Assembly (NCBI GenBank): GCA_913775095.1
Contig: CAJYIW010000019.1
Location: 744,001-808,000 of the forward strand
DNA from: an uncultured Siphonobacter sp.
GTDB lineage: Bacteria; Bacteroidota; Bacteroidia; Cytophagales; Spirosomataceae
Direction: 5' to 3'
Length of the DNA: 64,000 nt
Below, in pieces: positions 33,802 through 36,051 of the stretch. Position 1 is the stretch's first letter; each line of letters begins with the position of its first letter. Position numbers and translations under genes: made by a program. The notes under the pieces were generated by a model. It made no database searches, was not told the DNA's origin, and was given only the letters and a program-made list of their open reading frames with translations.

Positions 33802-35040
33802 TTACCGGTTGTAGGGATACTCGCTGATCCAGTGAAATCCCCGGCCGGTGAGGGTATAATCGCTGATTTTTTTACGTTTCAAGCCAGCTTTCAGAGCTTT
33901 ACCCTTCCATTCTCCGTGGATCATTAAACTATCCTTTTGAAGCGTATACTAAAACGTATGGACTAAAGTTGAATCGTAGTAGTTTTTCAAGGCAATGGTT
34001 TTTTCTTTATCATCCATGTTCAGCATAAACGACTCCGAGTTTCTATTCATCAACCGTACTTCAGCAAAATCATTTTCTATGATCAACTTATTCCATCGAA
34101 TGGTATCCGTAGTCAGGGGCGGCAAGGTATCATTTGCCAGTACAAAGGATTTCACTTCGTAAATCCCACGCAGCGGACGATCTGGTTTTTGAGTCCAGGA
34201 GTGCCCATTAAGCGTTACAAAAAGTACAAACACAATTACAATTGTTTTACCAACCCGATGCGTAATGCAATGCCATTTTTTCGACAATACCACCGAGTCA
34301 CGATTCAGCGAGGCAGGTTTGTGAAGAATGAAAAAACGATACACGGCGGATAAGTCAGGAGACAATATGAAAAAGGCTAGCAGAAGCAGGTAACTGGAAA
34401 ACAACTTTACGGGAATGTCAAAGCTGAAATTCAGCATAACCACATTAGCCATGACGGCGATCACCACCAGGGCTCCCAGAGCTTTGGTTCGTCTGAAAAG
34501 TAACAGCAATCCTCCCAGTACTTCACCTAAACCACCGAAAATGGAATAAGGTCTGGAAAGTCCCATCAGCCGCCAGACGATCCCCATCGGCGAAGACTCG
34601 CCGTAGGTTTGTTCCAGAGTGTAAAAATTCGGGTATCTGAATTGAGCTTCAAACACCTTGGCAAACCCGTACGACAACATCATCTGGGCGAGGTAATACC
34701 GGACAAACGTTTGGGTTAATACGTACAGTAATCCATAATTGAAGCGTTGTCGGAGGAAAATGGAAAGACCCAGGGAGAGAGTAAGGGAAAAGGTTACTAA
34801 AGTAAATAAATACGCATAATCAAAAGAGGTATCTCCGCTGCCCGTTCTGGTTATTTTTTTAATATTATCCATGCCTAATACTGAATTACCGATATGCTCA
34901 ATAAGCGGAATCAGTCCTAAAAGTGTGGGCAAGGGTAATACATAGCAGATCGTATAAATGGCAACAAACCAGATACCCAAACGATGCGGAAAAGACCAGC
35001 GATGAGATGAAGACAAGGGCGGTGTATACGTAACAGACAT
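33802..35040 (-). pseudogene. DoxX-like membrane protein gene interrupted by an in-frame TAG
   Basis: The main open part (33949-35040, 363 codons) encodes an N-terminal membrane region with several helices (FVAIYTICYVLPLPTLL, LLLLAFFILS) and a C-terminal soluble tail, as in Bacteroidota DoxX-like proteins. A TAG at 33949-33951 ends it, yet the same frame continues for 48 sense codons to a TAA at 33802, ending RGFHWISEYPYNR, which resembles the usual C-terminus of the family as I recall it. So the gene is truncated by one nonsense codon, or the base is a sequencing error, or the stop is read through. The rest of the frame looks intact and under coding constraint. Confidence 0.65.
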
Positions 35041-35646: not shown

Positions 35647-36051
35647 CGGCTGTGTTGTTTTATCGTTCGCTTCAAAACTAAAACAGCCCAATGACAGCCC
35701 TATGTCAGCAGGATTTCTGTGTTCAAACTAATGTAGAGGTATGCTTAATCGCGTCTGGCCGTGAAAGGTAAACAAATCAATAGTCCTAAGAACAGCCTCA
35801 TTCGTCCTGGCTGGTGTCTTTACCAACCATCAGGCTCCCACCTTGGCTGGTGAGGACACCAGCCAAGGTGGGAGCTGATGAAGACACCAGCCAGGGCGGG
35901 AGCCAAAGCGGGAGTAACCACCTTTACCCAAACGCAATCAATCGTGTTTCTACCAGCAAACAAAAAGGTCAGCCCGCTAAGCAGGCTGACCTTTGGCAAT
36001 AGGTGGATTTGTGCGGTAACTTTACACACCAAGCCCTAAACTCCAAACCGA
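35647..36051. repeat. Intergenic region with a long perfect palindrome
   Basis: No gene supported over 405 bases. It contains one degenerate palindrome (35808-35829), a 42-base perfect inverted repeat with 19-base arms and an AGGA loop (35834-35875), a third half-copy (35880-35900), a GCGTCTGG word (35750) also seen in the later 100-bp elements, and the secA terminator. Confidence 0.75.
35962..35994 (-). terminator. Terminator of secA
   Basis: AAAGGTCAGCC (35964-35974) and GGCTGACCTTT (35984-35994), nine-base loop, T-run on the minus strand. Confidence 0.85.

Follow-up and report, generated by a model that had tools for sequence, protein, structure and literature searches.

The closest described systems for a reading frame that continues beyond a stop codon are genes in which the stop is read through or encodes an amino acid, and species-specific pseudogenes. 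For the former, Fujita et al. 2007 (PMC1914089) take conservation of the stop in position and type as the criterion that sets readthrough genes apart from pseudogenes and sequencing errors. Since that method is itself unable to detect species-specific readthrough (PMC1914089), a stop that lacks such conservation is no proof against readthrough. The gene described here resembles stop-encoded amino acid and readthrough genes in having an in-frame stop followed by a conserved frame, and differs from them in that neither the position nor the type of its TAG is conserved across species, and in that no decoding machinery was found. As in species-specific bacterial pseudogenes and nonsense alleles (PMC11078800), a lone premature stop breaks a gene that is intact apart from it and has full-length orthologs, and this stop is not conserved between species; unlike these pseudogenes, the gene carries a single disabling change so far and shows no decay, which suggests that the break is very young. 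We consider it quite probable that the TAG marks a recent nonsense (pseudogene) allele of a gene for an accessory DoxX-like membrane protein. A nonsense allele is an ordinary kind of event.

The window analyzed here is a stretch of 64,000 nucleotides from an uncultured Siphonobacter sp. (contig CAJYIW010000019.1). On its minus strand, a frame at 33802-35040 runs over 412 codons from an ATG at 35040 to a TAA at 33802-33804. A TAG at 33949-33951 (codon 364) is its sole interruption. An earlier note on this sequence had claimed a single in-frame TAG without a frame shift, and this was confirmed, as 48 sense codons continue in the same frame. The features are as follows.

33949..35040, minus strand: open part of the DoxX-like membrane protein gene (363 codons plus TAG); Pfam DoxX match at 111-200 just under the cut-off, and orthologs.
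33949..33951, minus strand: premature in-frame TAG, codon 364; no stop there in 97 homologs, and surrounding sequence unique in the genome.
33802..33948, minus strand: remaining intact stretch, with 48 codons up to the closing RGFHWISEYPYNR and the TAA at 33802-33804; from frame reading and ortholog comparison.

The open part comprises the transmembrane DoxX-like region and the beginning of a C-terminal beta domain. The 26 bases that surround the TAG occur only once in the genome.

The family label given in the earlier note holds weakly. The Pfam DoxX profile (PF07681) was matched with E-values of 0.0002-0.0009, and 12 of 15 family members matched it at E <= 0.1, but the scores of 20.4 and 22.2 bits lie just below the gathering cut-off of 23.6 bits. 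Like DoxX proteins, the gene product has a transmembrane region that aligns to the profile (77 of its 85 positions); unlike them, it carries an additional C-terminal beta domain that ends in RGFHWI..YPYNR. The coda RGFHWISEYPYNR, which the note had described as closing full-length members, proved to be real: the same motif closes all four same-genus orthologs as well as homologs from other phyla. The latter, a homolog from a Verrucomicrobia MAG ending in RGFHWITEQSFNR and one from a Pirellulaceae MAG ending in RGFRWINEVPFNR, are distant, and were the only two matches from a contig scan for near relatives. In an alignment of 15 family members, residues R400, F402, W404, and E407 were invariant. 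No Pfam model matched this C-terminal domain and its coda, conserved across phyla; a deeply conserved motif outside the current Pfam models is a small but useful lead.

Five other genomes of the genus were compared. Four of these contain an ortholog (82, 79, 58, and 58% identity), in each case without a stop, and share the gene order SecA, DinB-like, DoxX-like gene, DUF2256, lipocalin-like, and GH36-like. In the fifth (G001, L097), the DoxX-like, lipocalin, DUF2256, and DinB genes are all absent between SecA and GH36. As a side observation, the SecA gene of another genome, G003, is split into two frames (L064/L065) near residue 600, most likely by an assembly error there. The search was extended to a family set of 222 genomes and an order sample of 390, counting other loci that match to at least query residue 405. 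None of the resulting 97 loci had a stop at codon 364. The earlier note had proposed that relatives ending at the same stop would refute its reading, and no such relative was found. Together with the full-length orthologs, the lineage-specific stop agrees with what is expected of a pseudogene. In the two closest species, codon 364 reads CAC and CAT (His); elsewhere, it encodes Asn, Thr, Ser, Ala, Gln, Arg, or Lys. The TAG allele is known from one genome, the only one of its species, and could therefore not be observed twice.

The part of the gene behind the stop is well conserved. Over its 48 residues, the tail shares 85% amino-acid identity (41/48) with the nearest ortholog, and chance would not explain an open tail with this degree of identity. 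Between the window and the related genome G005, dN/dS was 0.06 in the tail (19 synonymous and 8 nonsynonymous differences) and 0.16 in the body of the gene. Among the tail changes assigned to the window lineage by comparison with four genus relatives, there was 1 unique amino acid (Met373) versus 9-11 unique synonymous codons; under neutrality, the probability of finding at most one nonsynonymous change in 10 is 9e-6. These substitution patterns indicate that the tail has been under purifying selection since divergence. A tail kept in this way implies that the stop is either young on its branch or absent from the living genome. Assuming that decay began at the stop, its age would not exceed about 7-23% of the branch leading from the G005 split, or roughly 10-20% in round terms; this bound is approximate and depends on assumptions, with dS near saturation and small counts.

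Given this conservation, either the stop arose recently, or it is not real, or it is read through. These are also the three options that the earlier note had listed, of which a recent change is best supported, while suppression or recoding was left unsupported and an error is less likely. As the code past the stop is still intact, the break is either very recent or an assembly error. If a sequencing or assembly error created the TAG, the living organism would carry a sense codon at this site, and its gene would be intact. In line with this, the stop is single and isolated, the gene carries no other disabling change, and its tail has not decayed; nor was any other gene truly interrupted among the window genes compared with G005 and G003, where stops flagged at other open reading frames turned out, by coordinate inspection, to lie in antisense frames or upstream extensions. 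The histidine codons of the nearest orthologs, however, are two base changes away from TAG, so that one wrong base would be insufficient to produce it, and the assembly seems to be of good quality, with 27 contigs, a size of 5.65 Mb, and 99% completeness. An error ranks next after a nonsense allele, as an unlikely alternative, and we infer a real stop, not a miscalled base.

Alternatively, a suppressor tRNA, pyrrolysine insertion, or a leaky stop could yield the full-length protein. Functional readthrough at a useful rate would give rise to the DoxX-like protein in two forms, one short and one full-length, with selection on the long form preserving the tail. The purifying selection on the tail is the point in favor of this scenario, and it weakens the case for a nonsense allele, since a selected tail is equally expected under readthrough. 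Against it, the TAG is not conserved in relatives, and RF1 is present, intact, and above its cut-off. Among the 47 tRNA genes detected in the genome with Rfam and ARAGORN, which an atypical tRNA could escape, none had a CUA anticodon. No match to PylS passed the cut-off (29 bits versus 178 bits), and similar sub-cut-off matches occurred in 13 of 14 control genomes. Folding of the RNA around and after the TAG was no better than that of shuffled sequences (z-scores of -0.41 and 0.35). Finally, TAG terminates 12 of the 44 window genes, the DoxX-like frame included, and is an ordinary stop in the window. Nothing points to an altered genetic code. Functional recoding of the TAG is highly improbable in light of these results, and the same very low probability applies to the production of two forms of the protein.

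Under the preferred reading of a recent nonsense allele, RF1-dependent translation would stop at the TAG, and the 48 codons downstream would still be intact simply because they have not had long enough to decay. The product would end 49 residues early, without the final strands of the beta domain or the invariant RGFHWI..YPYNR coda. In an AlphaFold model, built from a three-sequence alignment and of low confidence (mean pLDDT of 52, rising to roughly 70-80 over residues 341-390), the stop is predicted to fall inside a strand at 359-368, and strands 371-378 and 381-390 would be removed along with the coda. With the last 49 residues lost, the product would most likely be non-functional or reduced in function, and the missing invariant C-terminal residues make such a loss or reduction likely. 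Translation restarting internally at an ATG at 33922-33924 was considered and rejected, as this Met is unique to the window lineage and a fragment of 40 residues would be unlikely to work by itself.

A nonsense allele could also leave a working protein of 363 residues, with the tail newly freed from selection. Breaks in this gene do occur occasionally, as 2 of the 97 other loci have true in-frame stops with intact code downstream. The homolog in G155 (L049) has an independent in-frame TAA that lies in the same C-terminal segment, about 8 codons past the position of the TAG, and the one in G521 (L121) has two independent in-frame stops near the N-terminus, in the membrane part. The first of these, as well as the divergent homologs in G220 and G465 that end without the RGFHWI coda, would fit a tolerated truncation. 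The invariant residues of the tail, however, are kept even in Verrucomicrobia and Pirellulaceae, and the predicted position of the stop within a strand, with two further strands lost, also speaks against it; this sub-case seems rather unlikely. Several other flagged stops were not counted: those in G107 and G112 are positioned upstream of the likely start; in G220 and G465, which form a divergent subgroup, the stops appear to be where the genes naturally end; and the one in G292 is close to where a more distant match begins. The absence of the whole block in G001, along with the independent stops in G155 and G521, indicates that the DoxX-like gene is dispensable.

Beyond annotation, the finding matters little: an entry for this gene should flag the premature stop that interrupts it, rather than list two genes or a recoded one.

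In the nearby intergenic region at 35803-35913, a cluster of inverted and direct repeats was found around CACCAGCCAAGGTGGGAGC. This motif forms a perfect 19-nt inverted repeat with a 4-nt loop, and within the genome, it occurs only in this region.
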